NCBI RefSeq assembly: GCF_000003815.2
Contig: NC_049989.1
Location: 14,016,918-14,080,917 of the forward strand
Direction of reading: 5' to 3'
DNA length: 64,000 bases
From: Branchiostoma floridae
Taxonomy: Eukaryota; Chordata; Leptocardii; Amphioxiformes; Branchiostomatidae
In this document: in pieces, positions 38,959 to 60,936 of the stretch
Numbering within the stretch: the stretch's first letter is position 1
How the letters are laid out: the number at the start of each line of letters is the position of its first letter
Made by a program: the position numbers and the translations under genes
Notes under the pieces: model-generated
What the model was told of the DNA's origin: nothing
What the model saw: only the letters and a program-made list of their open reading frames with translations
The model's database searches: none

Positions 38959-39002
38959 TTACAATGAAGTAAATTATTTCATAATTCATTTGTCCACTGA
39001 CA

Positions 39003-40850: not shown

Positions 40851-40927
40851 ATAGACTGTTGACTCTTTGCGTCACCGATGACATGAGAGTTGGGTGTCAC
40901 CATTAAGAAGTCCCGTGGCACAAGACT
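40851..40927 (-). CDS. gene B exon 2 (short linker exon)
   Basis: A 77-nt exon, entering in phase 0 after caacaacag and leaving in phase 2 at donor GTAAGC. It encodes SLVPRDFLMVTPNSHVIGDA then KSQQS. The homologous exon in gene A is 24479-24570; length differs only at the N-terminal end. The phases link exon 1 (phase 0) with exon 3 (phase 2). Confidence 0.72.
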
Positions 40928-41057
40928 CTGTTGTTGAACTCTGTACTCCAGGCTAGTAAATATCTACAACCAGAAATGATTATCAGCATCAGTATCTACA
41001 TTTAATCTTGTAACGGCTTCCTTCAGTGCATGCTCGGGTTACAGGATTTATGAATTA

Positions 41058-41770: not shown

Positions 41771-41782
41771 TATGTTAGTAAA

Positions 41783-43312: not shown

Positions 43313-43542
43313 ATTTATTGTGATCACTAGAACAAAGGTGACAGTTTATGAAACATCTCGGTGACGCATGCTCTTTCTAAAATCTATGTAATTTGATGAC
43401 ACAATTCCTCTTACACATACAATATACGAGTTGAGAAAACATCAAGATGGGTTCCTTAATTCATGTGACAATATACAACTATTTCACACAAGTATGAGGT
43501 CTCCAAACTTATGTTTAGAACATTTGTCAATCGCGTGTGTGT

Positions 43543-43608
<66 letters not shown>

Positions 43609-43617
43609 TGTGTGTGT

Positions 43618-43648
<31 letters not shown>

Positions 43649-43649
43649 A
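43543..43649. repeat. (TG)n microsatellite
   Basis: Over 100 bp of TG dinucleotides with two TA interruptions, about 100 bp past the donor of gene B exon 1. Confidence 0.97.
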
Positions 43650-43756
43650 TCTTTAGCTAACATTAATCTTCATTTAGCAAGTCCTTTAGCAACTCAACCC
43701 CCAACATTTCATATCTATCTTCATCATAAACAATACAATCAAATGGGAATGATTAC

Positions 43757-44470
43757 CAAGTTATTTTCCGTCTTCTGTCTTTCTTGCCTGATTCTTGCCG
43801 TGTACAGTAAGCGGTGAATGAGTGCCACTGTGCCTTGAAACTCCTCACACCGTGACAGTGCAGCGTTGTACAGAGCAGTGGCCTTGGTCAAACATGTCGC
43901 GTCTTTACTTTCTGTTCCTCTTTTCAGGTACACGTCGCCGAGACATTTTATCGCTTCCGTCTCTAACATAGTGTCACCGTTTATGATCCCTTCTATCACT
44001 ATCTTGGTATATTCAACCAGTAATAAAGTCTCATTGTTTCCATCAACAGTCAACCGTTGGTCCAGGTGTAGTAGCCTCTCTGCTATGGCGAGCGAAGACA
44101 TTTTCATGTCGTCAGTAAGGGGTTCAGAACGACTCGAAGCGGTTGGTATTGATCGCTTCCCTAATCTTAAATTTTCTGCATAGTGGTAGCGATATTCAAG
44201 ACTTTCTCCCACATCTGCGTCCTCACACCGGATCAGTGCGGTCCTGTACAGTACCATAGCCCTGTCAAACTTCTCTGGGCTCTTTTCGAGTCTCCCCTTT
44301 TCCAAGTTCACGTCACCCAGAGTTTTGAGCACCTCCACTTCCACACACCTGTCCATGTTCGCCATGGCGTCCAGCAGGGCACGGAGGTAGTCTGTCTCCG
44401 TACGGACTAGTCCCAGTCTCTTACTCTTGACGTCCACCTCGCGAAGTTCTTTACAGACTCGCAACATCAT
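43757..44470 (-). CDS. gene B exon 1: N-terminal GDV helical repeats
   Basis: Starts with ATGATG at 44470 (MMLRVCKELREVDVKSKRLG). Two GDV repeats follow: TLGDVNLEKGRLEKSPEKFD with RAMVLYRTALIRCE, and CLGDVYLKRGTESKDATCLT with KATALYNAALSRCE. The exon ends in phase 0; I place the donor at a GTAATC after AACTTG, which is weaker than the GTACGT of gene A. Identity with gene A exon 1 is high throughout, with no frame lesion. Gene B therefore spans 32.9-44.5 kb, with intron 1 and intron 2 enlarged by transposons. Confidence 0.85.
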
Positions 44471-44908
44471 GGATAGTTGGGCACCACGGAAAACCTCGTC
44501 AAGACCTTAGAAATAGTTAAGACTCACAAAAGTACCAACACAACCTCACAGACTGAAAGCTGTTACACCACCATTCTTCCGTGATTTTCAAGTGTCCAGG
44601 TTTGAGTTCATATTACTCATAATCTGCTGTGGAATGACATTAAATACTTATAGAAATATATACAGCTTAATGAGTATCACCTTTCTCTAGTAAGACGCTG
44701 CGTGTTTGGGGATGGGTAAAAACTGATGAAATGGTTCACTTCCGCTTCCGCGTTGAAAGTGATGCGTCATTTGCCCTTTGACCTTTATGCAAATGAGGCA
44801 AATATCCACCGAATTAGAAATAAAGAAGAGTAATACTTAAAACTTAGTGAAAGTCAGCAGCAGCCGGAGAGGTTTTATTTTCTGATCTTTGACTTGAGAG
44901 ACTAGCGT

Positions 44909-44922
44909 GTTTCTATGGTAAC
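44909..44922. promoter_or_regulatory. RFX X-box-like site upstream of gene B
   Basis: GTTTCTATGGTAAC resembles the inverted X-box (GTNRCC..RGYAAC) with one mismatch per half at most, about 440 bp upstream of the gene B start. A second CCATAGCAACGG phrase follows at about 44945. Possible RFX target only. Confidence 0.25.
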
Positions 44923-45572: not shown

Positions 45573-45865
45573 AAACTACAGTATGAATTTTACTTTTTTA
45601 ACGGATTTTTACAATGCAAGGCCAGTTGACTACTTCTATGCAATGTACTAATTTTGATGGAATTTTACTGTGAACTACAGTATGAATTTTACTTTTTAAA
45701 GGATTTTTACAATGCAGGGCCAGTTGACTACTTCTATGCAATGTACTAATTTTGATGGAATTTTACTGTGAACTACAGTATGAATTTTACTTTTTAAAGG
45801 ATTTTTACAATGCAGGGCCAGTTGACCACTTTTATGCTATGAACTAATTTTGATGGAATTTTGAA
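45573..45865. repeat. ~99-bp tandem repeat, 3 copies
   Basis: Units start at about 45573, 45673 and 45771 with aactacagtatgaattttac and share ggccagttgactacttctat. The third copy is slightly more diverged. Confidence 0.93.
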
Positions 45866-46017: not shown

Positions 46018-46137
46018 TTATCCCGGATGCTGATGATGATTCCGGTCATCAGGGTCGTGCATGGAACAGGTACCGCTAGTCGCCTCCTGCCAGGCTTGGC
46101 CCAGGTATCTGGCCTGTTCCTGATGGTGCCTCATGGC
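46018..46137 (-). CDS. coiled-coil gene, last exon
   Basis: Acceptor cgtttatacag, phase 0 entry, 39 residues ending in TAA at 46018-46020. It reads AMRHHQEQARYLGQAWQEAT and then a His-rich tail ending HQHPG. The tail is non-helical, fitting the end of a rod protein. It has no resemblance to the myosin tailpiece. Confidence 0.7.
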   Translation of the reverse strand, partial: AMRHHQEQARYLGQAWQEATSGTCSMHDPDDRNHHQHPG

Positions 46138-46381
46138 CTGTATAAACGAACACACATCAAACTAATCAGGATATGAATTGTCATGACTTTTTGCTAATAT
46201 TGCTTGACAGGAAAGAAACTACAATTACATGTCAAACGCTGTATCCACATGCAAAGGTGATTTGATTTCATGATAATTTTCGTCTCCCCAAATAAAGCTT
46301 AATGTATAGTTTCCGTAGATTATCTATTTCGAGCGAATTTTGAGCAGATATTAGTTCCATTAGATGAAAAATCCGTGTTAC

Positions 46382-46456
46382 CATTTCTTCCATGTGTCCG
46401 TTAGACATATGCTTTTCTTCCTCTTCTTCCTTCTTCCTTCTGGCAGTTGCCAACAC
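46382..46456 (-). CDS. coiled-coil gene exon (KEEEEEK)
   Basis: A 75-nt phase 0-0 exon, reading VLATARRKKEEEEEKHMSNG then HMEEM. The acceptor is a short cattctag and the donor GTAACA. Highly charged helix, no further identity. Confidence 0.6.
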
Positions 46457-46772
46457 CTAGAATGTAGACAATGTGTGATCAGATCACCACAGTGACGTGA
46501 CATTAAATGAGATAAGATAGTTTGTCTCGACAGGTACTGCCTTGTCAGCATGAAGATGGCTTGGGAATTATTAAATAAAAGAATAGACGTCCTCAGATTT
46601 GAAAGGACAAATTCTACAAACACTACATTGAGCTTAGAATGTTCGACCTTAATGTTTGAACTTGTAAAGTAGGTCGGTGGTTTGGTCAGTTTGCAATTAT
46701 AGTGCTTGTTTACATCTGGTTTGGCTCTGTTCCAATGTTGTAGACTAAAATGCAGAAAGTAGTGCTACTTAC

Positions 46773-46823
46773 TTTAAAGATCTCTCTTTCCATCATCGTA
46801 CAGCTGAGCGCACTCTGGAGCTC
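46773..46823 (-). CDS. coiled-coil gene exon
   Basis: A 51-nt phase 0-0 exon with a perfect GTAAGT donor, reading ELQSALSCTMMEREIFK. Helical heptad-like character. Confidence 0.65.
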
Positions 46824-46968
46824 CTATGCATATAGTGGAAATGTCAACACATTAAACATTTACAATACTGACTTAAAGGCAAGACAAATAACCACTATCT
46901 ATTAAATGAAAATGCGACACAAGGGAAAAGGCCAGACAAGAAATACGAAATCAAACATTGGCACTGAC

Positions 46969-47028
46969 CTTGATTTGTTTATCTTGTGACATCCTCGTCA
47001 TTTCATATACTGCTTTAGTCAAGTCGAT
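46969..47028 (-). CDS. coiled-coil gene exon
   Basis: A 60-nt phase 0-0 exon reading IDLTKAVYEMTRMSQDKQIK, acceptor cctgtag and donor GTCAGT. It follows the duplicated myosin-rod cassettes in transcript order. Confidence 0.62.
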
Positions 47029-47902
47029 CTACAGGAATGCATATGAGAAAGACGTCTGACTAACTTCGACACGTCAACATTTTACACCGATCTTGCTGTT
47101 ACGTTACAACATTAACAGCCGGTTAAACATTGACATTCCCACCTATTGATACAAGCAGTTACTACTTTAAGAAAATCGATATGCCGTTGCTAAAAGATCA
47201 AGAACAACGATAAGGATGATAATAACAACAATGATAATGTTAACAATGACGAAAACAACAAATATCGGTAACAACAATGGCAATTTGATGATAAATCATA
47301 GAAATGATAGTAAAATGAAATATCTGAATATCTGAATAGCCTGGGTACCGTCCGATTTCTACCGGGTTTTCATCTAATAAAAATGATTTTCTCATAACAA
47401 AAGATCATTAGCAGATTGATTGGCGCAAAACCTTCACCATTATACACATGAAAAACATAGTCTCATTACAGTGGTATGTACCAAAGTGCTGTATTTTCTC
47501 ATAGAAAAAATTAATATTAGGGGCAATGAAACCTAATGACGTAATTCATATGACCCCAAAAAGATTTAGAATCCTTTTATGCTTTCATGACGATCTATCA
47601 GTATTCGTTACAGTTCCATTCTTTCTTCATTCAATAATGAGAAAACAATGGAAAGTCAAAATGCTAATTTAGCTAACTCTGAAACTTTAACAGCAATACC
47701 CTACAAACATCCATCGTGTAAAACAATCACATTGTACAGCCAAGCGAAAGGATAGAACGCAAATACAACACACCTACAACAACAATCATTAATATGCAAT
47801 AATGATACGTAATAATAATGATTAATAAGTATTAATACAATAAAACCGTCGCCAACTAAATAGTTTTTATTGCAACACTTATTAAACATGATTTTAACTC
47901 AC

Positions 47903-48103
47903 CGATGCCTCAGATTGCGTCTTGTGACTCTTGATCTTAAGCTGCAATTTCTCCACCAGCTCCTGAAGACGCTCCTGCTTCTTACGGTCCTCGTCTGACT
48001 GGAAGGTCATCTCCTTGAGACGGAGCTCGTTCTTACGCAGATTCTTCAGGGTCTCCTGGTGGCGCCTCTGCTCGGCGTCCAGGCCTGCCTTCAGGTCACG
48101 CAC
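47903..48103 (-). CDS. myosin-rod exon Y, copy 1
   Basis: A 201-nt phase 0-0 exon between acceptor ctccaacccag and donor GTGAGT. It begins VRDLKAGLDAEQRRHQETLK and continues NLRKNELRLKEMTFQSDEDR then QERLQELVEKLQLKIKS. This is the light-meromyosin stretch of myosin-II heavy chain (R.LE.ELDAEQRRH.ETLKN.RKNE.R.KE..FQ.EEDRK.QERLQELVDKLQ.KIK.YK). Copies 2-4 lie at 49.5, 51.2 and 51.7 kb. Copy 1 has LKAGLD where the others have L(E/K)AELD. Confidence 0.9.
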
Positions 48104-48128
48104 CTGGGTTGGAGGAAAACTTTCCTTA

Positions 48129-48450
48129 AGCTAAGGGCACAACCCGCCGTACGTGCAATTTGTCGACCCGTACGTTGTTTCTGGAGGCTACGTCCGCCAC
48201 GTATTCCTAACAACGTTCAGACTGTACAGGGCAGGCGCGTCGCCCGTACTGGCACGTACGGGGGCAAATCCGCAGCCCGATGGCACACACAGTTTTGCCT
48301 ACACGTAAAGTTCTACGGTGTCTGCTTGCTCCAAAATCCGTCGGATTCCCTACGAGTTCGTAAGGAGGCGGTACTTACCACTAACGGATCCCAAAAGATC
48401 GCCCACGTTTTGGCACGTATTTGCACGTACGGCGGGTTGTGCCCTTAGCT
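48129..48450. mobile_element. Harbinger-type MITE (322 bp, TTA duplication)
   Basis: Perfect terminal inverted repeats starting agctaagggcacaacccgcc, with TTA on both sides. It sits about 25 bp upstream of the exon Y copy 1 acceptor. Truncated copies of the same element occupy the same place beside exon Y copies 3 and 4 (51.39 and 51.91 kb), so it inserted before the exon duplications. Confidence 0.88.
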
Positions 48451-48889
48451 TTAGGCACTAGTGTAATCATACAGCTGAGAGTAACATCTCGAAAGAGTGA
48501 CATACTATACTATGTGCTACCCAGTTTGGACACGTATGCGTAGGCGTTGTCCTGCAAGTGTCCATATGCCATAACCACTGGAGTTTCTGAACAAAATGTA
48601 CTAGTCACAATAAGCTTCTGGCAGCCTTTACTAATACGCCAGGCATTTGTGTGGCCAGTTCTTGCCGCATGCGCGCACACCAGACTAATACGCGAGGTAG
48701 CAGGTAGTCAAGCACCTGGATAGGTTTTGAAAAAGTCAGAGGTTTGCAGGTAGCATTCACTAACTTTCGTCCGTGACTTAGAAGACAAGACTGATAGGGC
48801 TCATATACTCACACCGGACAAAACACCATTCTTGTTGATAAATGTACCGCCTTACCCTGTCCCCGGCTTCTGTAGGAATACCGACTTAC

Positions 48890-49051
48890 CCTAGTCTCCA
48901 GCTTCTGCAGGTGGTGTTTCCCGGCCTTCAGCGCGCCCGTCTCCACCTCGTCAAGACGACGCTGGAAGTCTCGGATAGTCTCCTCAAGATTCTTCTCAAG
49001 ATGAGCGTTCTTGTCGTGTTCCTGACGTAGGTCGTCAGCGATGCTCGCAGC
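48890..49051 (-). CDS. myosin-rod exon X, copy 1
   Basis: A 162-nt phase 0-0 exon with a perfect GTAAGT donor. It reads [20 protein letters not shown], then [20 protein letters not shown] and [14 protein letters not shown]. It matches the myosin rod block AA..A..L..EQD...H.E...K.LE...(R/K)D.Q.RLDEAE..ALK.GKK..QKLE. It lacks three residues (VKK, with local change) present in copy 2, which would alter coiled-coil phasing. It directly precedes Y copy 1 in transcript order, as in real myosins. Confidence 0.88.
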
Positions 49052-49482
49052 CTGTTTCAGATAAACACAAGAAAGGCAATCAGTGATAGCAGACTTCAGA
49101 CAGTAGGCGCCCTCTAACAGAACATATGAGAACTGCACTGCAGAAACGCGCGCACACACACATACACACACACATACACACACACACGTAAACACACAAA
49201 AAACTAGCACGCACAACACCCCCCAAAAATTCAGATTTAGAATTTGCTCGTGCAGTATTCGTTACAAATCGATTCTTCTTCATTCAATATTGAACCTTAA
49301 CCGCAATGCCTTAGAAATATCCATCGCGTAAAACAATCTTCATACATACAGCCATGCGAAAGGATAGAACACAAATACAACACACCAACATCAACAATCG
49401 TCATTAATTCGTAAAAGCAATAAAACCGTCGCCATGGCAATAGTTTTTATTACAACACTTATTAAACATGATTTCAACTCAC

Positions 49483-49683
49483 CGATGCCTCAGATTGCGT
49501 CTTGTGACTCTTGATCTTAAGCTGCAATTTCTCCACCAGCTCCTGAAGACGCTCCTGCTTCTTATGGTCCTCGTCTGACTGGAAGGTCATCTCCTTGAGA
49601 CGGAGCTCGTTCTTGCGCAGGTTCTTCAGGGTCTCCTGGTGGCGCCTCTGCTTAGCGTCGAGTTCTGCCTCCAGGTTACGCAC
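49483..49683 (-). CDS. myosin-rod exon Y, copy 2
   Basis: A 201-nt phase 0-0 exon, acceptor ctccaacccag, donor GTGAGT. It starts VRNLEAELDAKQRRHQETLK, and carries TFQSDEDHKKQERLQELV. Differences from copy 1 are few. Its upstream intron carries a different transposon (49.74-50.30 kb) in place of the Harbinger MITE. Confidence 0.9.
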
Positions 49684-49739
49684 CTGGGTTGGAGGAAAAC
49701 TTTCTTTAGGGTTTGATGCAACATACACTCGAGAGCCGC

Positions 49740-50300
49740 GTAGTGCCCGTACCCAGGGGGGGGGGAGGTGGGGGTTGGGGTTCGGACCCAACAACCAACC
49801 CCCCCACACCTACTCCCCCCCCCCCCCCACACACACACACATACGCTCGAAGGTCCGTTTTTTCACACTCGAAGGTCCGCTTTTTCATGTCCAAGATTTA
49901 TTTTTCAAAGGCATGACTGATATGCGTTTTTCACTGATAGACATTTCATTCAATCTAAGCTAGTTTTTGCAAAATGTGCACCATAAAGTGCAGGAAATAG
50001 CGTTTCAGTGGGTCCAGATTTCAAAATTTCTCCGGACCTCCATTGCGTCTTTGGTTTCCGATTTGGTGAAAGTATGTCGGGGGTCGCCCTCAAAGACTTA
50101 CGCCGAAAGTCTTGTGTGTATCTTAATAGAAATTCCATTTAACTTTGCCAGTAAATTTTGCCCGTCAAAATGCAGGAAATTGCGTTTCAGAGGGTCAAAA
50201 TTTCAACTTTTTTCTGGGGAGCATGCCCCCGGAACCCCATAGGCAGCTCAAGTAATTAAAAGAGCCCCTCACTGTGGCAAAATCCTGGCTACGGGCATGG
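49740..50300. mobile_element. inverted-repeat DNA element with gtgcccgtacccagg ends
   Basis: The left end reads tagtgcccgtacccagg and the right end cctggctacgggcat, inverted to each other with small differences. The inside has poly-G, poly-C and (CA)n runs and two copies of an aaatagcgtttcag(t/a)gggtc phrase. No clear target-site duplication. Confidence 0.6.
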
Positions 50301-50643
50301 AGAGTAACATCTCGCAAGGGTGACATCCTATACTATGTACTACCCAGTTTGGACATATATACGTAAGCGTTGCCCTACAAGTGTTTATATACCATAACCA
50401 CTGGAGTTTCTAAACAAGTCTACTTGGCACAATAAGCTTCTGTCAGCCTTTACTGACACGCCAGGCACTTGTGTGGCCAGCAGTTCTTGCCGCACACCTG
50501 ACTAATACGCGAGGTAGCAGGTTCTCAAGTACCTGTAGGTGTTGAAATAGTCAGAAGTTTGCAGGTAGCATCCACTAACTTTCGTCCGTGACAAGTGTAC
50601 CACCTTACCCTAGTCCCCGGCTTCTGTAGGGGTACCGTCTTAC

Positions 50644-50814
50644 CTTAGTCTCCAGCTTCTGCAGGTGGTGTTTCCCGGCCTTCAGCGCGCCCGTCTCCAC
50701 CTCGTCAAGACGACGCTGGAAGTCTCGGATATTGTCCTCAAGACTCTTCTTCACCTTCTCAAGATGGGCGTTCTTGTCTTGTTCCTGACGGAGGTCGTCA
50801 GCGATGCTCGCAGC
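50644..50814 (-). CDS. myosin-rod exon X, copy 2
   Basis: A 171-nt phase 0-0 exon, acceptor tctggaacag and donor GTAAGA. It encodes [40 protein letters not shown] and [17 protein letters not shown]. It is the full-length form compared with copy 1 and fits the myosin-II rod consensus residue for residue in the conserved positions. Confidence 0.9.
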
Positions 50815-51172
50815 CTGTTCCAGATAAACACAGGAAAGACAATCAGCGATAGTAGATTTTACTCCTTCAGACAGTAAGCGACCTCTAGCCGAACATATGA
50901 GAACTGCACTGCAGAAACACGCACACACACACACCAAAAAAATCAGATTGATAATTCTTTTATTCAGATCTATCACTATTCGTTACGAATCCATTCTTTC
51001 TTCATTCAATAATGAACCTTAACAGCAATCTTCATACATACAGCCATGTGAAAGGATAGAAAACGAATACAACACACCTACATCAACAATCATTCGTACG
51101 TAAAAACAATAAAACCGTCGCCATGGCAATGGCTTTTTATTGCAACACTTATTAAACATGATTTCAACACAC

Positions 51173-51373
51173 CGATGCCTCAGATTGCCTCTTGTGCGTC
51201 TTTATCTTCATCTGTACTTCCTCCACCAACTCCTGGAGACGTTCCTGTTTCTTACGGTCCTCGTCTGACTGAAAGGTCATCTCCTTAAGACGGAGCTCGT
51301 TCTTGCGCAGGTTCTTCAGGGTGTCCTGGTGGCGCCTCTGCTCGGCGTCCAGCTCTGCCTCCAGGTCACGCAC
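51173..51373 (-). CDS. myosin-rod exon Y, copy 3
   Basis: A 201-nt phase 0-0 exon with acceptor ctccaacccag. The donor is GTGTGT, weaker than the GTGAGT of the other copies. It starts VRDLEAELDAEQRRHQDTLK and ends IKTHKRQSEAS. It is not preceded by its own X exon. Confidence 0.85.
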
Positions 51374-51689
51374 CTGGGTTGGAGAAAAACGTTCCTTAAG
51401 TTAAGGGCACCTCGCCGTACAACCCAAAAACCAGATTTATAATTCTTTTATTCAGATCTATCAGTATTCGTTACAAATTCATTCTTTCTTCATTCAATAA
51501 TAAACCTTAACAGCAATGCCTTACAAATATCCATCGCGTAAAACAATCTTCATACATACAGCCATGCGAAATGATAGAACACAAATATAACACACCTACA
51601 TCAACAATCAATACTACGTAAAAATAATAAAACCGTCGCCATGGCAATAGTCTTCATTGCAACACGTATTAAACATGATTTCAACTCAC

Positions 51690-51887
51690 TTCGTCAGATT
51701 GCGTCTTGTACGTGTTGATCTTCTGCTGCATTTTCTCCACCAGCTCCTGAAGACGCTCCTGCTTCTTACGGTCCTCGTCTGACTGGAAGGTCATCTCCTT
51801 GAGACGGAGCTCGTTCTTGCGTAGATTCTTCAGGGTGTCCTGGTGGCGCCTCTGCTCGGCGTCCAGCTCTGCCTTCAGGTCACGCAC
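51690..51887 (-). CDS. myosin-rod exon Y, copy 4
   Basis: A 198-nt phase 0-0 exon, starting VRDLKAELDAEQRRHQDTLK and ending INTYKTQSDE, donor GTGAGT. It is one codon shorter than the other Y copies at the 3' end. The truncated Harbinger MITE lies just upstream of its acceptor. Confidence 0.87.
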
Positions 51888-51907
51888 CTGGGTTGTAGAA
51901 AAACGTT

Positions 51908-51996
51908 CCTTAAGCTAAGGGCACAACCCGCCGTACGTGCAATTTGTCCGTACGTTTCTTTGGGAGGCCAAGTCCGCCACGTATTTCTGAAAACGC
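51908..51996. mobile_element. truncated Harbinger MITE
   Basis: Same left terminal repeat (ctaagggcacaacccgccgt) as the intact element at 48.13 kb, but cut off after about 90 bp where it meets the WRTK exon. Confidence 0.8.
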
Positions 51997-52065
51997 CTCG
52001 TAGATATGGATCTCCTTCTTCGATTCCTCCAGCTCCAAGTTGACCTGTTCGCTCTTCGTTCGCCA
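51997..52065 (-). CDS. myosin-rod-like exon (WRTKSEQ), donor unclear
   Basis: Acceptor attggttgtgtttag, then WRTKSEQVNLELEESKKEIH and IYE. W-R-T/S-K-x-E followed by ELEESKK resembles the myosin rod segment around the conserved WR.K.E. Its 3' border falls where the truncated MITE begins, and the only candidate donor is a non-canonical GC. The original donor may have been lost with the deletion. If so, this exon can no longer be spliced normally. Confidence 0.5.
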
Positions 52066-52431
52066 CTAAACACAACCAATGAGAAGTGTTTGAATCCCCC
52101 GTCACACATTCAGGACCGTCTCACGAATTCACACCCGACCGCTTCCCAACTGAGGTCGACGCTGCATTAGGAGTAATCCATCCTATTCTAGTCCCAGACC
52201 TTTCCTCTGGTGGCATCTATTAGAATATCCCGATAATAGACCTCCCGACTTTGATTTGTCAGAATGCAGGGTTTGAGCAAATGACTTTTCAAGAATAGCT
52301 AGTCGACACCCTGACGGACAAAGTCCCAATTACAGATGGCCTAACTTACGATTGACTCCCAACCTAGCCTCCGTTGGAGTCTTCGAAATGGGCTGGATTT
52401 TGACGACGCCTCAGAGGCGAGCCAAATATTG

Positions 52432-52627
52432 TACTGTAAATGCAGAAATGTTCGCGGTGGATTTATGTTCGCGGTTTTCGCGTTGGCCATTTCACCGCGA
52501 ATTTAAAACCACCGCGAACATTTTTCTAGGGCATTGAAATACTTCAGTGCATGGAGCTACCGCGAAATTAAAACCACCACAAAAAGTCCTCTTTCCCGCT
52601 ACCGCGAACTTAAATGCATTTACAGTA
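52432..52627. mobile_element. MITE with tactgtaaatgca terminal repeats
   Basis: Left end tactgtaaatgcagaaatgt and right end aaatgcatttacagta are inverted. The inside contains several ccgcgaa(t/c)tta(a) phrases in both orientations. Fragments of the family occur at about 61.18 and 62.0 kb. Confidence 0.78.
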
Positions 52628-52939
52628 GTTTGCGACCGTTTGACAAGAATTCCCAAAATATCGCAAGCATGTCAGGAATTTTTCTACAGGCATGTGTAGC
52701 TGCATCATCCCTTTAGAGGGGAATAACTTAGGAATGGGTTGACGGATCTTTGCAATGTATATAGCTTACACAATAACAGCTGATAAATACACTGCATTTC
52801 ATGTTAGAATGCTAAAAAAATATGCAATATGTAACTCAAAAAGAGAGAAGTATTATGCTTATTGATTAGTTCATGCAAATGAGGATCTCGTTTGTATAAT
52901 TAATGACAAACATTTATGATAGGTCACTCGTCAAAAGAG

Positions 52940-53115
52940 ATCACTTTTTTGTTAACAGCAATGCCCGACAAACATCCATCGCGTAAAACAATCTTCATAC
53001 ATACAGCCAGGCGAAAGGATAGAGGATAGAACACAAATACAACACACCTATAACAGCAATCATTAATACTTGTAAACAATACAACCGCCACCATGGCGAC
53101 AGTTTTTAGTTTTGT
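52940..53115. repeat. orphan copy of the intron flank duplicated with exon Y
   Basis: Same sequence (catccatcgcgtaaaacaat, cataca(t)acagccaggcgaaaggatag, aaccgccaccatggc) that lies 3' of each exon Y copy, but no Y exon follows. It marks an extra duplication that has lost its exon. Confidence 0.75.
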
Positions 53116-53171
53116 CGTCACGTCTTGTCAGTAAATTTTTCACACCAAAAAGGATCAGAAGCAAACCCTAC

Positions 53172-53219
53172 CTCTTCTCTGAGCTTGGCCGTCTCGTTGT
53201 TACTGAGAGCCAACTCCTC
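53172..53219 (-). CDS. coiled-coil gene exon
   Basis: A 48-nt phase 0-0 exon, donor GTAGGG, reading EELALSNNETAKLREE. In transcript order it directly precedes the WRTK exon. Confidence 0.6.
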
Positions 53220-53514
53220 CTAAACCGTGTGAAAACAAACATTTGCTTCAGAATAAAATCTTACCTAATTTTCAATGTTTTTGTGACATTTCTAGACATA
53301 CTCTGTAAACCAATCAACTTTATAACAACATACAATGGCCAGCTCCAAAATGGATGTTTGCACTTTCTTACCATGTGACCATTGGAAGTTTGGTGATCTT
53401 TGACGTCCATATAGCACTTACAGTAAGTGGTTATACTGTATATCTTTTAGGAAACGTGTGAGTTACTACAGGGATAGAGTTTGCTACACAGTTTGTTACG
53501 GTGCCTCTAGACGA

Positions 53515-54260
53515 CCATATCGGCATCACGTAGCGTGACGGCAGTATGTGTAGCTAACAGCTGCACATATCGCATCACGTAGCGTAACGGCAGTATGTGT
53601 AGCTCACAGCCGCACATATCGGCATCACGTAGCGTAACGGCAGTATGTGTAGCTCACAGCCGCACATATCGGCATCACGTAGTGTAACGGCAGTATGTGT
53701 AGCTCAAAGCTGCGCATATCGGCATCACGTAGAGTAATGGCAGTATGTGTAGCTCACAGCTGCGCATATTGTCATCACGTAGCGTAACGGCAGTATGTGT
53801 AGCTCAAAGCTGCGCATATCGGCATCACGTAGCGTAACGGCAGTATGTGTAGCTCACAGCTGCGCATATCGGCATCACGTAGCGTAACGGCAGTATGTGT
53901 AGCCCACAGCTGCGCATATCGGCATCATGCAGCGTAACGGCAGTATGTGTAGCTCACAGCTGCGCATATCGGCATCACGTAGCGTAACGGCAGTATGTGT
54001 AGCCCACAGCTGCGCATATCGGCATCACGTAGCGTAACGGCAGTACGTGTGGCTCACAGCTCGGACCTCCTGGGTTCGAGCACCCTGACATGCTCCGGTG
54101 TGCCCTTAGGGAACGTTACTAGTACTTGAATGGACATATATGGAGGTCCCGTGATTGAGGAAAGTAAAACTTCGAGCATGTATACGGAAAAGAGCCCACC
54201 ACACTTATCGAAAAGTGTAGGGTCCCATCCCGTTAAAATCCTTGTGCGTTACGCCACAAG
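53515..54260 (+). repeat. SINE with its tRNA-like A-box amplified as a ~50-bp minisatellite
   Basis: From 53.52 to 54.05 kb a 50-51-bp unit (gcatcacgtagcgtaacggc, agtatgtgtagctcac, agctgcgcatatcg) repeats about ten times. TAGCGTAACGG fits a Pol III A box. After the last unit the sequence continues to a B box (GGGTTCGAGCACCC, 54071-54084) and a SINE-like body ending near 54.26 kb in an A-rich tract. The distance from last A box to B box (~40 nt) is tRNA-like. Confidence 0.75.
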
Positions 54261-54323
54261 GCAATACAAAAAATATTTAAAAACAGGTCTTCTTTTTTAG
54301 CCAATGGTATTGTTTTAGCCTAC

Positions 54324-54395
54324 CTTCGTTTGGCTTAACATGGAGTCCTTCACGGCTGCTTGGTCATCTTTCTCCGCTACCAATTTGGTCAGCGC
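54324..54395 (-). CDS. coiled-coil gene exon
   Basis: A 72-nt phase 0-0 exon, acceptor gaatgttcacag, donor GTAGGC, reading ALTKLVAEKDDQAAVKDSML then SQTK. Amphipathic helix; no family match. Confidence 0.65.
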
Positions 54396-54774
54396 CTGTG
54401 AACATTCAACGATACTACGGTTAGTCAAAGAATGATAGTGTTAATTGTCAGGACAACGTACGTCAACGTTGTTTGCTGTTTTCTAAAACTCGTTTTTCAC
54501 CACCGTTGATAAATGTATCTGTCCTTAGCTATCCTACATTTCCAAGTGTTATGTGCTTCTAATATACCACAAGTATAATTGCTATTGTACGTTCTTTTTT
54601 CTCACAAATCAACTTTTATTTTGTGCTACCAAAGATCATAAGATGACCCTTGTGTAACATGAATGTCAGTAATATCCCTGTAACATTATCCACGATCTTC
54701 GGGCGTATCGATGTAAGATCGGCCATCGACAGAGGGTTTCGAGCATTTTTCCCCTGAAAATCGTCCCTGTCACA

Positions 54775-54830
54775 TATAAGCCATACTTTGTACCTTGTAC
54801 AATTGTTGTGCAATAAAGTTATTATAATAA
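54775..54830 (+). mobile_element. LINE 3' tail fragment
   Basis: Reads ccatactttgtaccttgtac then aattgttgtgcaataaagtt, matching the inverted 3' end of the LINE at 41.78 kb. A typical 5'-truncated remnant. Confidence 0.6.
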
Positions 54831-55120
54831 GCGAGGCTCGGGCGATTGCCGCAGAATCGTTGTCCGATCGACTTTCGCCAATGTGACAGGGGTATAAATA
54901 CCCATTTTCACTAGACAGCGATCGCTGACCAAAAATTTAAAAAAATCTGTGTCTGTGTCTGTATCTGTATCTGTATCCATATATCCGGTATAACCGCCGT
55001 TCGGCGTAACACACCAGCTTCGCAGGCACGTGGTGTGGCCTCTGGTAACCGTTGACTGATCTGTCAAACAATAATTGCATTATAGCTTATTTAGATGCGA
55101 ATATCCAGATTGGTACTCAC

Positions 55121-55183
55121 CTGTGTCATCACCTTCTGCACGACACTACAAGCTGTAGCCTTAATTTCCATCTCTCTAGCTTC
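55121..55183 (-). CDS. coiled-coil gene exon
   Basis: A 63-nt phase 0-0 exon, acceptor cttattttccag, perfect GTGAGT donor, reading EAREMEIKATACSVVQKVMT then Q. Confidence 0.67.
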
Positions 55184-55349
55184 CTGGAAAATAAGGAAAC
55201 ATCAAGAGAATTCGTTGTTTCTTTGCTTAGTTATCCTCCTTGTGGTTAAACTTGACCTTCACCTTTGACTCTCCAACACCTATCCACATACCAAATATCA
55301 TTTTAATCTTTTCAGAGGTTCTGAAGTTATGCTGACAGCAATAGTCTTA

Positions 55350-55984
55350 TTCGAGAGAGAGAGTGACGGAGAGAGAGAGAGAGTGAGTGACGGAGAGAGA
55401 GAGAGAGAGTGACGGAGAGAGAGAGTGAATGACGGAGAGAGAGAGAGAGAGAGAGAGTGACGGAGAGAGAAGAGAGAGTGAGTGACGGAGAGAGAGAGAG
55501 TGAGTGACGGAGAGAGAAGAGAGAGTGAGTGACGGAGAGAGAGAGTGAGTGACGGAGAGAGAGAGAGTGAGTGACGGAGAGAGAGAGTGAATGACGGAGA
55601 GAGAGAGAGAGAGAGAGTGAATGACGGAGAGAGAGAGAGAGTGAGTGACGGAGAGAGAAGAGAGAGTGAGTGACGGAGAGAGAGAGAGAGTGAGTGACGG
55701 AGAGAGAGAGAGTGAGTGACGGAGAGAGAGAGAGTGAGTGACGGAGAGAGAGAGAGTGAGTGACGGAGAGAGAGAGAGAGTGAGTGACGGAGAGAGAGAG
55801 AGTGAGTGACGGAGAGAGAGAGAGAGTGAGTGACGGAGAGAGAGAGAGTGAGTGACGGAGAGAGAGAGAGAGTGAGTGACGGAGAGAGAGAGAGTGAGTG
55901 ACGGAGAGAGAGAGAGAGTGAGTGACGGAGAGAGAGAGAGAGAGTGACAGAGAGAGACAGACAGAGAGAGAGAGAGAGAGAGGC
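55350..55984. repeat. GA-rich minisatellite (gagtgagtgacggagagaga)
   Basis: About 630 bp of gagagaga runs punctuated by gtgagtgacgga. Unit length varies from ~20 to 34 bp. Long Ser/Leu-rich frames appear on the minus strand in all three frames, a sign that they are composition artefacts. In an intron of the coiled-coil gene. Confidence 0.97.
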
Positions 55985-56126
55985 AGACACACATTTATTA
56001 CCTGAAGGTATCAAATACACGAACTTGGCCACGTTCAAAGTTGAGCATATATAGGAAAAGAGTGTTACCTGTATTATGGTGACTATGATTTCTTACTACT
56101 AGTATAACCACAATATTGCTTCTTAC

Positions 56127-56180
56127 CTCATCCTTCTTTTTCACTATCTCCTCATGTAGGCTCTTCAGGGAGCTGATAAT
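56127..56180 (-). CDS. coiled-coil gene exon
   Basis: A 54-nt phase 0-0 exon, donor GTAAGA, reading IISSLKSLHEEIVKKKDE. The heptad-like I..L..L...I pattern supports a coiled coil. Confidence 0.66.
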
Positions 56181-56449
56181 CTTTCAATGGGAAAAGAATA
56201 GCGCATGTTCATACTACGTTGAGAATATCACGAGTGTGCATATTGCCTGGTACAATGTGATCTCTAGCTAGGTCATAATATCGTATATTTTTGAATTTCT
56301 ACATGAACACTGGATACAGATAAAATCTAAAAACACTTGGATCGTTGTATATTTTCATACTCAAAAGTTTCTGGTATCATGATTTGATATTTGCGTTATA
56401 TGTGTGTTGTCTGGCGTACGATGGATTGCTTCATGTTGAAATAAATCGT

Positions 56450-56836
56450 GAGGTAGCCTTGTTTGTAATTGTAAAATGACACTAGTGAGGTACATGTGGC
56501 CGTGAACGTATGGTTGTGCAGGTTACATAATAAAAGCGGACCCAATGACTGTAGTTGATGTAGTTGTAAACTTTTTGAGAGATACCAGTCTACCACACTA
56601 TTTATAGCTAGTGTCACTTTGCGCACCTCTTTAATAAAGAAATAAAAGACTTGTTGGTTGTGATACAATGTTTAGTCGCTCTTAATCTTGTTAACGTTAC
56701 AATGTTATTGTTATGTGTCTATTTTGAAAATTTAGACATCTTCATTTTGTTTACCGATCTTGTTTTTTCGTCCTCTCTCATTAAATTTGGAGTCTGTAGA
56801 GGATTCCATACATAATATTTACTTGCTGTGGTCTCA
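56450..56836. mobile_element. degenerate copy of the 38.44-kb Harbinger MITE
   Basis: Shares the right end (ccatacataatatttacttgctgtgg) and inner phrases (gccagtctaccacac-like, cttgttggtt/ctctgata) with 38.44-38.96 kb. The left end is lost. Confidence 0.7.
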
Positions 56837-56942
56837 GTGTTTCAATAGTCTGTATTGTGTCTTTGCGGAAAGACGTGTCTTGTATTGTTAAATTAACTGT
56901 GCTGATGTATAACACGTTTGTCAGAAACATAACTCCACTCAC

Positions 56943-56990
56943 CAGCTGCTGCTGATTAGCCTCTTGCCTCATTTTTGCGCTATTCTCATG
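56943..56990 (-). CDS. coiled-coil gene exon
   Basis: A 48-nt phase 0-0 exon, acceptor ctcctccacag, perfect GTGAGT donor, reading HENSAKMRQEANQQQL. Confidence 0.66.
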
Positions 56991-57742
56991 CTGTGGAGGA
57001 GAAAAATAATATCAGAGGCAATAAAAATGATGACGTCATCAATTTGGCCCCAAAAAAATCAGATTTAGAATTCTTTAATGCCCATCTATCAACGTTCGTT
57101 ACGGCTCCATTCTTTCTTAATTTATTAATAAGAAATCAGTTGAAGGTCAAAATGCCAATTTAGCCAACCGAGATACAAACAAATTGACAAGATAGAAACA
57201 AATGCGAGGAACTAATCCAATTTGGTTATCTATGTGCACGTCCTTTGAGTTATCTTTTGATCTCATTTTTTTTTTAATTTTCCCTTTTCTTCGGTATTTC
57301 CTATCTCAGGTAAAAGTGTAATAGAAGTTGTAGTTTCAAATCAACCTTAAAAACTGTTAAACGTTGCTGGCGACACAGTCTACTACTCAATAAGATTAAA
57401 AGCAGCACACAGAGCATCTTCCGGCCACAGACGAACTTTGGCAAGACGTAGTCCCGACCACTTGTACTACGTGTAAACTTTACTCGAGCTCGAATAAGGC
57501 AAACATGTCACAGTTTAACTTGTGACGGAGCTTGTGCATAAAGAATTGAACATTCCAAAATTATTACTAGTAACAAAACAGAGAAATTAGACGTCCAGTG
57601 CACACCTGGATTTTCACCCCCTTTAACGGAACTTCAAGGATCACGGGCATCGTAGGGATAGAGTAGATAGGGATCAGTAACACGGATGTGTACATTCAGA
57701 TCCTTATGATTTGGGTATTGACATTTTATTGGTTTAGTTTAA

Positions 57743-58654
57743 CCCTATTCAGACCGGGCTTTTTTGGTCATCCCTGGACGGGGGGAGGGGGGGCTTTTGA
57801 GGCCCTCCAATTCTAAGTCCTCTAACTCTTGAACGACGTGCCGTAGGGCCACCAAATTTTCAGGACATGATATCGACATAACGTGTGACGTTACGTTGAC
57901 GTAAGATGACGTAATTATGACGTCATCAATTTGATTATATTGGCCGGACCCATGAAAAAAGGGTATTCTCAGACAACTTCAAGTTATACTACAAAAATGT
58001 AACAACAAGTGCAGATAACAGAATAATAATGTTTATTACGACTTGTATTGTCAATAGCAACATCGATATAATGACGTCATGCACATCTAAGATACGAGTT
58101 GGGCTCCGCCATATTATATCCACTACCTTGAATTTTTAAAACTACTTTTTTTGCAACAAATAATCACAAAGGGCAATGGAAATAGACTAAATTCATTCAT
58201 TTAGATGTTTTTTGATGAAAAAATTAGGTATCAGGTAGTTACAAATTTTAAGGGATAATTAGCTTGTTATTCTTGATCTGGCCATACGGTCCGCCATCTT
58301 GGATTTTGGGCTGATGACGTCATCAAATTAGCATAATTTATGCATATATAATTATGAAAGATATGCTAAATAATATAAGATTTTATTTATGTATCAAAAT
58401 AGCAGTAATATAGCAAATAAATGTAAAAAATACATTGTTAGAACCAAAAATAGTGATTTTGGGCAAAACTGCCTGTCAGCAAACGATGGCCATGGCAACA
58501 CGAAAAAATGGAAAATTTGTCAAACTTCGTAAAATTGTTGCCAACAATATTTTAGGAAAACTCACCAGATTTGGTGGCTCTAGCATAAGCCGTTCTGGCG
58601 TTATAGGACATCGAAGTTGGTGCAGGCCTCAAAAGCCCCCCCGTCTGAATAGGG
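57743..58654. mobile_element. piggyBac-type non-autonomous element (912 bp, TTAA)
   Basis: Ends CCCTATTCAGACCGGGC... and ...CCGTCTGAATAGGG are inverted and each is flanked by TTAA. CCC ends with TTAA duplication are typical of piggyBac. It has no transposase, and internally is AT-rich with several atgacgtcat phrases. In the long intron between exons 2 and 3 of the coiled-coil gene. Confidence 0.9.
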
Positions 58655-58851
58655 TTAAGTAACATTTACAGGGATGACACCATCAAGAATCCCGGCTATC
58701 TAACCGAAAATACTATACTTTGTGGGCCTCAAAATTTGCCTGAGCTAAAATTGTGTCTATACGCAAGTCATACGGACTTGAATGTACGCACACGCGTGAC
58801 TGCTCCCATAAATGGAGCATATCAAAAACGTTTGTGTAGATCAGTACTCAC

Positions 58852-58940
58852 CAAGACACGGACGCAATCCTTTAGATGGCTGTTGGTACTGCGCATCCCA
58901 AGGAACTCCTGCCTCATGTTGGCAACTGTCATGAATTCAT
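58852..58940 (-). CDS. coiled-coil gene exon 2
   Basis: An 89-nt exon, acceptor gtctctctttag, perfect GTGAGT donor. It enters in phase 1, joining exon 1, and leaves in phase 0. It reads DEFMTVANMRQEFLGMRSTN (first Asp codon split) then SHLKDCVRVL. The M..V..MRQEF..M....HLK helix is likely coiled coil. From here on nearly all exons are phase 0-0. Confidence 0.72.
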
Positions 58941-58971
58941 CTAAAGAGAGACATAAAATGTCTGTATGACG

Positions 58972-59121
58972 TACTCTCCAAGCAGAGGTTCGGCTCTGAC
59001 TTTTGAAAACCAATTTCGGGACGTTTTTATCGGCCGGTGGACATAAAAAGGTATAGAAAGCCCGATAAAAACGCTTGAAAACACGTCAAAATGAGCCAGA
59101 GTCGAACCTTTGCTTGGAGTA
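58972..59121. mobile_element. MITE, same family as 24.32 kb
   Basis: tactctccaagcagaggttc at the left is inverted at the right as gaacctttgcttggagta. Inner arms (cgtttttatcgg and ccgataaaaacg) also pair. About 30 bp upstream of the exon 2 acceptor. Confidence 0.8.
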
Positions 59122-59197
59122 TACATGTGACGAAGTTCAAGAGGAGCATTTCAAAGTGAAAAGTTACTTCTTCCTTCTCCTACTACTACCATGGTTT

Positions 59198-59315
59198 CGT
59201 TGAAGAGGTTCATCAGTCACGCATGAATTCAGTGTTTCCAAATTTTCTTCAAGCAATGACTGTTTTTAAACAGTACCTTACTTTTAAAAACAGCCATTGC
59301 TTGAAGAAAATCTGG
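59198..59315. mobile_element. hairpin element, gaagaggttcatcagtcacg family
   Basis: attttcttcaagcaatgact pairs with its later inverse around tacctta. The flank gttgaagaggttcatcagtc also borders the hairpin at 60.59 kb, in the opposite orientation. Confidence 0.75.
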
Positions 59316-60589
59316 AGTAACTATCACGACATACACATAATTACAACTATGGAGTAATAGTCTTTTTTCTTTGATAATGCAAATGAGATCTTCATTTACA
59401 TAATTCGTCAACCCCTTCTCGAGTTATTCTCGAAAGGGGGCCCAAGCCTACATTGCTTGTCCCAGAGCTAACGTTATCTACCATTCAAACATGACAATCA
59501 TATCAAGAACACGAAATGTCAAAACCGGAAATTTCCCTGCATTACCGTAAAACGCCGATTGTCGAACTTGGCCTTCGTTTTTCCTGACCCTTACTCCTAT
59601 CCAATATTACAAGATCTATCCGCAGCTTCTCGCGCTATTTTTTCTCTACAGGCAGACACAAGAAGAAAAGACACCGAAAAGAAAAACTTTTTGGAAGGTA
59701 AAATATAGTAAAGCTGTTAGTCTATTTATTACCATGTTCTAGAATGGACGCGGTGGGTGGGGTGAATTTCAAGGCACATTTTATACGCATCCCAGTTTCA
59801 AATTGACTGCTAAGTACATTGGACACTTCATAAAGACAAGTAAAGAATATGATACAAAGCGGGTTTTTTTACTTCTATCTTGACATTTTAAACACAACAA
59901 TGTACACACAAAAGTGACATCTAGCGACTATTGGGATAATGACAAACAGCAACGACAACGTCGTATCATAAACTGACCAGACATTTTCCCTCACTCATTG
60001 CGGACTTGTTTTCTCGGTATATACTTTAAGACTTTTCTTGCCTTAGCTTGGTGAAAAACTCAATACCGCTTATATACTTATGTTTTATTTTTTATAAGTT
60101 TTTAAGGTTTTGTTGACAACAGTAAGCCGGTACACGGTATGTCATTCAAACTGCAGTACGTTGGTGGCGGCGCTGCGTTCTAAATTAGATTTGTGTAGTC
60201 GTTGACTTTATAATCGGAATATCATACAAAACGTTCAAGTATTACTAAAACGACAACACGCCAAACTTTAAAAGATTCGTTTTTATCGATATGATTCTTT
60301 GAGCGCTCCGTCAAATCGCTAAGCCACAGCGACACCGCCAACGTGCCGCAGTTTCAGTGAGTTACCCGCGTTAGGATGTCTTACAGCCTCCAAAGTTTGG
60401 CGTTTTCATTGCAACAGTTCAATGTACTAGTGTTTTCCTTTTCAACCCATTTCGCTGCAAGTACCCGAACCCACAGTACGAACTGTGTCCTGTGTGAGGA
60501 CTTTTGCCATAGGACATGCCATAAATTTACACAATGCTCTCATAACAAACACGCGCCGTTCAAGTAGTCAAGTAGTAAAGGCTGTAACA

Positions 60590-60750
60590 ACGACAGTTAC
60601 AACAATTTTCATCAATCAATGACTGTTTTTGAAAAGGTACAGTACATACCTCCCTGAATACTGTACCTTTTCAAAAACAGTCATTGATTGATGAAAATTG
60701 TTGTAACTGTTGGCAAACGTGACTGATGAACCTCTTCAACGATGTAACAA
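60590..60750. mobile_element. foldback hairpin element with ~50-bp arms
   Basis: acagttacaacaattttcat...gaaaaggtacagta is followed by its near-perfect inverse after catacctccctgaa. It ends in cgtgactgatgaacctcttc, shared with 59.2 kb. It lies between exon 1 and exon 2 of the coiled-coil gene. Confidence 0.85.
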
Positions 60751-60869
60751 CGACGGATTCATGCCCACAAACTTCGGTGAGTCGTATTAACAAGAAAAAT
60801 AACCTAGTGTCATTCTAGCGGACTGAGAAACTCCGCTACATTAAGCTTAAGCCTTCCACAATTCCTTAC

Positions 60870-60936
60870 CTGTGTTCAGACACACTTTAGTAGTTTTATC
60901 TTTTGTAGATTCACGGAACTTTCGTAGTAACGCCAT
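60870..60936 (-). CDS. coiled-coil gene exon 1 (start)
   Basis: ATG at 60934-60936 in a good context (acgccATGGCG). It reads MALLRKFRESTKDKTTKVCL then NT, leaving in phase 1 at donor GTAAGG, and fits exon 2. The basic N-terminus has no signal peptide. The whole gene, on the minus strand, would run 60936 to 46018. With every exon included it encodes about 650 residues, all rod and linker, with no myosin motor, neck or SH3-like module anywhere in the span. Confidence 0.65.

Follow-up and report, generated by a model that had tools for sequence, protein, structure and literature searches.

A host gene and its second copy

Within the window, which is the whole 64,000-nucleotide stretch of Branchiostoma floridae DNA that was analysed, the minus strand from 60936 to 46018 holds a gene with 11 non-myosin exons and six exons that encode distal light meromyosin. 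All window features given below are on this strand. The first host exon, e1 (60870..60936), has the start codon (MALLRKFRESTKDKTTKVCLNT) and a GTAAGG donor site and ends in phase 1, while e2 (58852..58940) runs from phase 1 to phase 0. The phase 0-0 exons e3 (56943..56990), e4 (56127..56180), e5 (55121..55183) and e6 (54324..54395) follow. The last host exon ahead of the myosin-derived cassettes is e7 (53172..53219), and the first one past them is d1 (46969..47028), after which come d2 (46773..46823), d3 (46382..46456) and d4 (46018..46137), which carries the stop codon.

The codon usage of the 11 host exons is gene-like: it sums to +48.6 bits, where random open stretches give -46.8 +/- 13.9. 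An exon scan, by which e3, e4, e6, e7, d1 and d2 were found, returned eight candidates from 15 kb of the gene's strand, seven of them coding-like (six host exons and part of cassette X2), and none that was coding-like among nine from 85 kb of control strand; its cut-offs were chosen after the exons had been seen, its codon background was trained partly on control stretches, and looser cut-offs give one control match.

The same contig (C11) carries, at a distance of 0.45 Mb and in the opposite orientation, a segmental duplicate of the locus. It holds ten host exons with intact splice sites and 75-100% amino acid identity: e2 shares 28 of 30 residues with C11:13603286-13603375, and the identity is 75% for e3, 89% for e4, 100% for e5, 88% for e6, 94% for e7, 95% for d1, 88% for d2, 84% for d3 and 95% for d4, where the stop is at the same place. 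The recurrence of these ten exons in the paralog with intact splice sites independently confirms that the host exons of the window are real. The counterpart of e1, missed by tblastn, was read by eye as an ATG exon that ends in the same phase. Between the two loci, the host exons have a Ka/Ks of 0.18 over 225 codons, and their differences are distributed 11/9/33 over the three codon positions (P 1.5e-5). Intron divergence is 0.037-0.29, and a TPR neighbour accompanies both copies of the locus.

High polymorphism has been described for lancelets (PMC4284660), and a single contig carries both copies, which would suit an assembly artefact in which the C11 copy represents the second haplotype and the array was misassembled. 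Such an artefact is very improbable in view of the distance between the copies, their opposite orientation, the differing arrays (YYXYXY in the window and YYXYYYY, seven cassettes, in the paralog), the raw intron differences of 4-24% and the coding constraint between the copies.

The original prediction held that the start, N-terminal and C-terminal exons are not myosin. This agrees with the host protein having nothing over the Pfam cut-off and, searched to E 10, no counterpart in the PDB, and with its exons forming a gene of their own. Judged by its sequence, the host is unrelated to myosin and is a separate gene present in two copies. A home-made heptad model places the host part below background (-15.9). 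The host was also considered as a CCDC102-like protein, a candidate dropped on the same Pfam and PDB results; a literature search for CCDC102A together with a myosin tail found none. After the flanking exons had emerged as a gene of their own, the idea of a motor gene beyond the 64 kb was dropped. Rfam (gathering threshold) and ARAGORN find nothing in the whole window.

Myosin-tail cassettes and their likely source

The cassettes all lie between e7 and d1, in the transcript order Y4 Y3 X2 Y2 X1 Y1. Y4 (51690..51887) encodes 66 residues of myosin tail and pairs with the paralogous pY1 (UFBoot 96), and Y3 (51173..51373; 67 residues), which has a weaker donor site, GTGTGT, pairs with pY2 (UFBoot 91). 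X2 (50644..50814; 57 residues) keeps the skip residue, and in the heptad model its register breaks near the skip glycine. Y2 (49483..49683) and Y1 (47903..48103) encode 67 residues each, and X1 (48890..49051; 54 residues) has an in-frame 9-nt deletion. The prediction that the cassettes are tandem and phase 0-0, so that inclusion or skipping keeps the frame, holds for all six, whose phases and AG and GT sites were read. Since every cassette is phase 0, as are the exons next to the array, any combination of cassettes keeps the frame. Across both loci, 13 of 13 cassettes are open with splice sites and frame intact, and every change in cassette length is a multiple of three (9 nt in X1; 3 nt in Y4 and pY1).

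That these exons encode light meromyosin, as first proposed, is well supported. The joined X+Y sequence aligns with muscle myosin heavy chains without gaps over 123 of 123 residues (E 4.5e-34), corresponds to residues 1762-1884 of human myosin-7 (MYH7) and scores 47.3 bits for Pfam Myosin_tail_1 against a cut-off of 38.1. Y alone stays under this cut-off at 21.6 bits, and no Myosin_tail_1 row appears for the host tail when it carries one Y. The predicted lack of a motor in the span is likewise upheld: with human MYH7 queries, the motor has a best E of 4.6 in the window, against 17 matches from the same query on the C9 stretch, and the distal rod matches only the X and Y exons (next best elsewhere E 1.7). 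The last myosin rod exon is absent from the window in the same distal-rod search. A motor followed by a full rod, as in a muscle myosin, does not occur within the 64 kb, and e1 has a start codon.

The likely source of the X/Y block, to judge from sequence similarity, is a muscle myosin heavy chain gene on another contig, C9, of the same genome. The candidate source block (C9:6558788-6557826, 963 bp) takes in both exons, X and Y, with the X/Y intron between them and 15 bp beyond the Y donor. In this gene, rod exons precede X/Y, the last exon follows them, and an upstream exon matches the end of the motor. The cassette blocks are 74-92% identical to it, X/Y intron included: 92.5% in DNA between Y3 and C9:6558051-6557826, 84.5% over 328 bp including intron for X2, 89.4% over 236 bp for Y2, 89% over 236 bp for Y1, and 74% between 49198-48479, which covers X1 together with the greater part of the X/Y intron, and C9:6558788-6558062. 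The original prediction proposed comparing the X and Y borders with a parental myosin gene; this comparison finds them matching the C9 genes. An X exon of 171 nt with AG and GT is present in eight of the nine plus-strand C9 myosin genes examined (the ninth has no X above the score cut-off), and the Y donor site follows 67 residues in eight of nine (the ninth is masked). The donor gene has the same X/Y borders, so that the borders of the cassettes are parental exon borders, as in a muscle myosin.

In the X tree, support is 95 for the cassettes and 100 for the cassettes with the donor. In the Y tree the cassettes do not separate from the donor as a single clade (supports 50 and 55), and another round of capture, or gene conversion by myosin sequence, may therefore have contributed to the Y cassettes. 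As read from the aligned DNA, the capture is a DNA event with the intron retained. Of the two origins first suggested, exon capture fits the C9 donor block, while loss of a motor does not fit an unrelated host gene.

Rod sequence without a motor has precedents in molluscan myorod/catchin and the Drosophila myosin rod protein, which are motor-less rods made by the myosin gene itself (PMC3912159, PMC4410989), and the rod exons without a motor in this span could be taken for a headless relative that lost its motor from the gene or by an alternative promoter. Myorod even has a unique N-terminal domain (PMC3912159). Such kinship is extremely improbable here. The host exons are non-myosin by the Pfam and PDB searches, X and Y are the only myosin parts, the last myosin exon is missing, and the myosin source sits on C9. 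Whereas myorod and catchin, as described, are myosin-gene products that keep the C-terminal rod, this gene is no such product: it has tandem copies of only two distal exons and a C-terminus of its own. The expectation of a rod-only protein also fails, as the myosin share of the predicted product depends on splicing and lies between 0 residues (of 248) and 378 (of 626).

Constraint on the cassettes and the sequences between them

Among the ten Y copies, pN/pS is 0.10 in codons 17-50 and 0.66 in codons 51-66, segments that were picked, as were all three Y segments, after the alignment had been seen. In ten C9 myosin genes the corresponding values are 0.22 and 0.15. The central 34 codons of Y are constrained as protein, and the last 16 are relaxed. 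The contrast between segments is smaller for Y versus donor (pN/pS about 0.30, 0.18 and 0.37), and individual Y pairs give values between 0.17 and 0.76. The X2/X1 ratio is 0.69, and X2 differs from the paralog X by seven replaced codons and no silent one, while X1 is short by three residues. X is weakly constrained, and its change, like that of some of the Y pairs, looks close to neutral.

These values bear on whether the myosin block could be an intronic passenger that is mostly skipped, with the gene yielding only the 248-residue host protein. The X cassettes and the Y ends show relaxed change, in keeping with such a passenger, and in three of six window Y pairs (without Y1) exon divergence (9.6-11.1%) equals or exceeds that of the following intron (8.4-9.5%). 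The differing number and order of cassettes at the two loci and the weak donor site of Y3 point the same way. This reading is nevertheless unlikely, if far from negligible, since all 13 cassettes are open with both splice sites and their lengths change in threes. Moreover, the variable codons within Y codons 17-50 of the ten copies are silent-only in 10 cases and replaced in 4, and X2 and X1 differ by 4.3% in the exon against 12.5% in the downstream intron. Because the central Y codons are constrained, the cassettes appear, as far as substitutions can tell, to be used as protein.

The introns retain traces of both host and mobile sequence. Segment A of the host intron (52952..53108) follows e7 and, by self-BLAST, recurs downstream of all four Y exons. 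Divergence between the copies after e7 and Y4 is 0.157, and intron divergence from C9 donor to cassette is 0.19-0.20. Segment A belongs to the host and was duplicated on the two sides of, and within, the captured array. In the window it is confined to this gene, and it occurs at two of the 40 genome places listed (40 of 835 candidates scored), this locus and the paralog, in a listing that missed its copies after e7, Y2, Y3 and Y4. The remaining 38 of the 40 cover segment B alone, a dispersed repeat arm. An older internal host duplication had been considered as the source of segments A and B, and was rejected once B proved to be such an arm.

The X1/Y1 intron contains a MITE (48124..48478) with terminal inverted repeats of 31-35 bp, absent from the donor intron. 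With 40 of 2534 candidates scored, it has at least 40 near full-length places in the genome, and 112 rows when partial pieces are included. RNA pairing that would make the cassettes mutually exclusive was modelled with a docking site at 48455-48421 for sequences before Y4, Y3 and Y1; the predicted duplexes reach -72.1, -42.3 and -70.6 kcal/mol, and the means for shuffled sequences are -25.5, -19.7 and -26.1. The docking arm, however, is the terminal inverted repeat of this high-copy element, and pairing for Y2, X2 and X1 is no better than for shuffles. Because the arm is a MITE end, docking-site control is rejected as the main reading and is improbable as an explanation of the array; pairing there may occur but looks incidental.

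A probable chimeric gene made by exon shuffling

A donor segment with its intron lies inside an intron of an unrelated gene, with the frame preserved, which fits exon shuffling, a known process. No earlier report of this case is known: literature searches for amphioxus myosin heavy chain exon duplication and chimeric myosin exons found none, partly as judged by title among the papers listed. Fast exon shuffling has been reported in lancelets (Huang et al. 2014, PMC4284660), and the locus resembles that account in its new exon combination at the DNA level, mobile-element-rich genome and symmetric-phase exons, but it is phase 0-0, in contrast to the reported 1-1 bias. The lancelet claim was disputed and gene-prediction errors were charged (Banyai and Patthy 2016, PMC4967905). 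Gene-prediction error alone is insufficient here, because the donor, the block ends, the intron homology and a selected second copy are visible.

Other known systems are similar in part. Like Lottia Mhc8 (PMC3912159), this is a separate gene with a myosin tail and no motor; Mhc8, as presented there, is tail only and lies in a myosin gene cluster, whereas here most exons are non-myosin and the donor is on another contig. Homologous exons that stand in tandem and share their borders recall the mutually exclusive clusters of metazoan muscle myosin genes (PMC3912159), except that this array is outside any myosin gene and all its exon lengths are multiples of three. Together with the phases, these lengths would also permit several cassettes in one mRNA. 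For mutually exclusive myosin exons in deuterostomes, the sections consulted of that source name only cluster-8, in sea urchins and the acorn worm.

The evidence favours, with a probability of roughly three in four, a chimeric gene formed by exon capture whose cassettes enter the protein. The myosin block would have entered the host intron between e7 and d1 once and then been repeated in tandem, and the whole locus would have been duplicated afterwards. In the mRNAs, at least one cassette would stand between e7 and d1. The predicted product would be helical and probably dimeric, with 248 residues without a cassette and up to 626 with all six. The cassettes would serve as length modules, keeping a central light-meromyosin surface while their ends diverged by drift or specialisation. 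Coiled coils of the myosin type may be bound by the product, although this is the weakest step of the proposal.

For the genome of this lancelet, the locus leans little on gene prediction, as donor, insertion, amplification, duplication and changed constraint are legible in the DNA. It is a clean case in which part of a highly conserved filament protein has turned into a repeat module in another gene. A bolder and distinctly tentative suggestion is that, in a lancelet gene family, the combinatorial array would give one unrelated helical protein many lengths and varied myosin-like ends, and that this protein might be an evolving ruler or myosin-filament interactor with specialised cassettes and a selected common core.

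Exon structure and reality of the host gene

The chimeric gene lies on the minus strand and runs from 60936 to 46018. Its exon order (5' to 3') is e1-e7, Y4, Y3, X2, Y2, X1, Y1 and d1-d4, where X and Y are the myosin-tail cassettes and the e and d exons belong to the host. All junctions are in phase 0, with the sole exception of e1/e2 (phase 1), in agreement with the original prediction that nearly all exons are phase 0. The myosin-tail identity of the six cassettes is likewise confirmed: joined X+Y gives a gap-free alignment of all 123 residues with muscle myosin heavy chains (best E-values 4.5e-34 and 1.2e-33), and scores 47.3 bits against Pfam Myosin_tail_1 (cut-off 38.1). Y by itself reaches 21.6 bits, and for the host tail with one Y no Myosin_tail_1 match was reported at E 1. 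X+Y also matches 3jbh (E 3.5e-32) and human myosin-7 (E 3.6e-32), with much weaker matches to myosin-11 (E 0.0026) and myosin-9 (E 0.0028). A heptad model trained on the MYH7 rod sequence predicts a loss of register within X, close to the glycine at the position of the last skip residue of myosin.

The flanking exons are not myosin, as had been proposed: neither a Pfam match above the cut-off nor a PDB match was obtained for the host family. They nevertheless form a real gene. Scored with a codon model trained on 2659 codons of TPR genes within the window, the 11 host exons together reach +48.6 bits; random open stretches of equal lengths average -46.8 (s.d. 13.9). In a scan for short phase-0 exons, 7 of 8 candidates in 15 kb of the gene's strand were coding-like; they comprise six host exons and a portion of X2. 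The control strand (85 kb) gave none among 9 candidates, or one match at looser cut-offs. The cut-offs were chosen after the exons were known, and training of the codon background drew in part on the control stretches. The scan list lacks five host exons: e1 and d4 because they are terminal, e2 because its phase is not 0-0, e5 because its codon score is too low and d3 because its donor score is.

Independent proof that the host exons are real comes from a paralog in the 513-Mb assembly. The window corresponds to C11:14016918-14080917, and the second copy of the gene lies inside C11:13601000-13618000 in the opposite orientation. It holds e2-e7 and d1-d4 at 75-100% amino acid identity, with all acceptors (10/10) and donors (9/9) intact, and, where e1 would be expected, an ATG exon identified by eye (MDCIRKIKGASRDSKSTPVCVKT). 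Over 225 codons, the two copies differ with Ks 0.266 and Ka 0.047 (ratio 0.18), and the differences at codon positions 1, 2 and 3 number 11, 9 and 33 (P 1.5e-5).

The duplication extends into the adjoining TPR gene (36001-36900 and 43770-44783 matched). TPR genes carrying a nucleotidyltransferase-like (DUF294) segment lie at 36001-44918, in several copies, and at C11:13618805-13622431, and were duplicated along with the chimeric gene. A reverse transcriptase ORF (RVT_1, 38985-40331) has no counterpart in the stretch read at the paralog. At both loci, the e6/e7 intron contains 50-bp tandem repeats (53516-54061), and repeats of about 98 bp lie past the stop codon (45574-45862). The e3/e4 intron of the paralog contains a tandem array of 27-bp units (C11:13604256-13605093), whose unit sequence is also seen at 56921-56894.

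Source and spread of the cassettes

The myosin-tail matches listed include a tandem cluster on C9 and others on C5, C2, C13 and C15; only the best candidates were scored, and this incomplete list lacks the window's own X and Y exons. For nine plus-strand genes of the C9 cluster, the X/Y region was read. X was found in eight, each with 171 nt and AG/GT, and Y in all nine; in eight of these, 67 residues precede the donor site (one masked). Thus, the cassettes have the exon borders of the parental myosin family; exon capture was one of the two origins put forward in the original prediction.

The best donor seen is a minus-strand C9 gene in which four distal rod exons are followed by X, Y and the last exon. 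Identity is 92.5% between 51383-51158 and C9:6558051-6557826, 84.5% between 50934-50615 and C9:6558757-6558430, and 74% between 49198-48479 and C9:6558788-6558062. An upstream exon at C9:6568727-6568587, the part of its motor that was read, matches MYH7 residues 762-808 (the motor end). Since the X/Y intron was copied too, a retrocopy origin is ruled out. By eye, the captured block ends on the right 15 bp beyond the Y donor site, in a short stretch similar between host and donor, and on the left within a TG repeat upstream of X.

In the C9 cluster (C9:6381189-6568999), at least nine muscle myosin heavy chain genes stand in tandem on the plus strand; after them come two on the minus strand, one of which is the donor. 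These two (C9:6530785-6530591 and C9:6558041-6557844) are alike in Y (Ks 0.18) and distant in X (Ks 1.5), a difference suggestive of Y-exon conversion between the two genes.

Copies of host sequence A lie downstream of e7 and of all four Y exons; therefore, host DNA was duplicated around the captured block. Among the matches listed in a genome search, which missed known copies, A occurs only at this locus and the paralog. Segment B, beside A, is the arm of a dispersed repeat (of 40 places listed, 38 cover B alone), which accounts for its copy before e3. With the donor as reference, the X1/Y1 intron is broken at one point by a MITE (48124-48478). The element measures about 330 bp, carries terminal inverted repeats of 31-35 bp and occurs in many genome copies. 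The inverted repeat preceding Y1, Y4 and Y3 is the end of this element, which has at least 40 near full-length genome places (40 of 2534 candidates were scored). Its predicted duplexes are very stable; because the pairing arm is a multi-copy MITE end, RNA-guided exclusive splicing of the cassettes is not claimed.

The paralog array reads Y, Y, X, Y, Y, Y, Y. In the Y tree, Y4 groups with the paralog's first Y (support 96), and Y3 groups with the second one (91). In the X tree, one clade (95) adjoining the donor (100) unites X2, X1 and the paralog X. Accordingly, the 5' YYX looks common to both arrays, with the 3' part altered. The Y tree leaves cassettes and donor unseparated (supports 50 and 55), so a single capture is the simplest reading rather than proven.

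Corrected intron divergence is 0.19-0.20 between cassettes and donor, and 0.157 between A after e7 and A after Y. In the simplest order, the myosin block would have been captured with duplication of A, then amplified, and the whole locus duplicated, with later conversion in parts. The divergence of five introns between the loci spreads from 0.037 to 0.29, and this leaves room for other orders.

Selection and possible role

All 13 cassettes at both loci have an open frame with AG and GT. Among ten Y copies, variable codons are 10 silent-only and 4 replaced in codons 17-50, and 0 and 12 in codons 51-66 (Fisher P 2e-4; segments picked after the alignment was seen). By segment (codons 1-16, 17-50 and 51-66), pN/pS is 0.44, 0.10 and 0.66, compared with 0.20, 0.22 and 0.15 in ten C9 myosin genes. 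Thus, the Y centre is maintained at the protein level, and the ends have relaxed or diversified; the parental family lacks this pattern. In a neutral simulation, replaced codons were too few in Y4/Y3 (P 0.028) and Y3/Y2 (P 0.005), which supports constraint; Y2/Y1 showed no shortage (P 0.13).

Other comparisons count against constraint. Between X2 and the paralog X, 7 codon differences are replacements and 0 are silent, X1 lacks 3 residues, the X2/X1 ratio is 0.69, and individual Y pairs range from 0.17 to 0.76. It is conceivable, though rather improbable, that the captured exons are unused and mostly skipped, the gene making the 248-residue host protein only. This would fit the window Y pairs lacking Y1 (3 of 6), whose exons diverged as much as their introns, and the smaller centre/end contrast of Y against the donor (about 0.30, 0.18 and 0.37 by segment). 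It is likely that the cassettes are used as protein, and a chimeric gene formed by exon capture, with the cassettes as length modules, is the best explanation (probability roughly 0.76).

The computed product has 248 residues with no cassette, 315 with Y1 only, 372 with X2Y2 and 626 with all six. From the helix rise per residue, each cassette would lengthen the helical protein by about 8-10 nm, and would present a myosin-like charged core. An encounter between the product and muscle thick filaments is conjecture, and rather unlikely.

Lancelet exon shuffling has been described as the fastest among metazoans, with a 1-1 phase bias (PMC4284660), whereas the phase at the chimeric locus is 0-0. 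That claim was later questioned as gene-prediction error (PMC4967905). The chimeric locus represents exon shuffling at the DNA level and is untouched by this objection.
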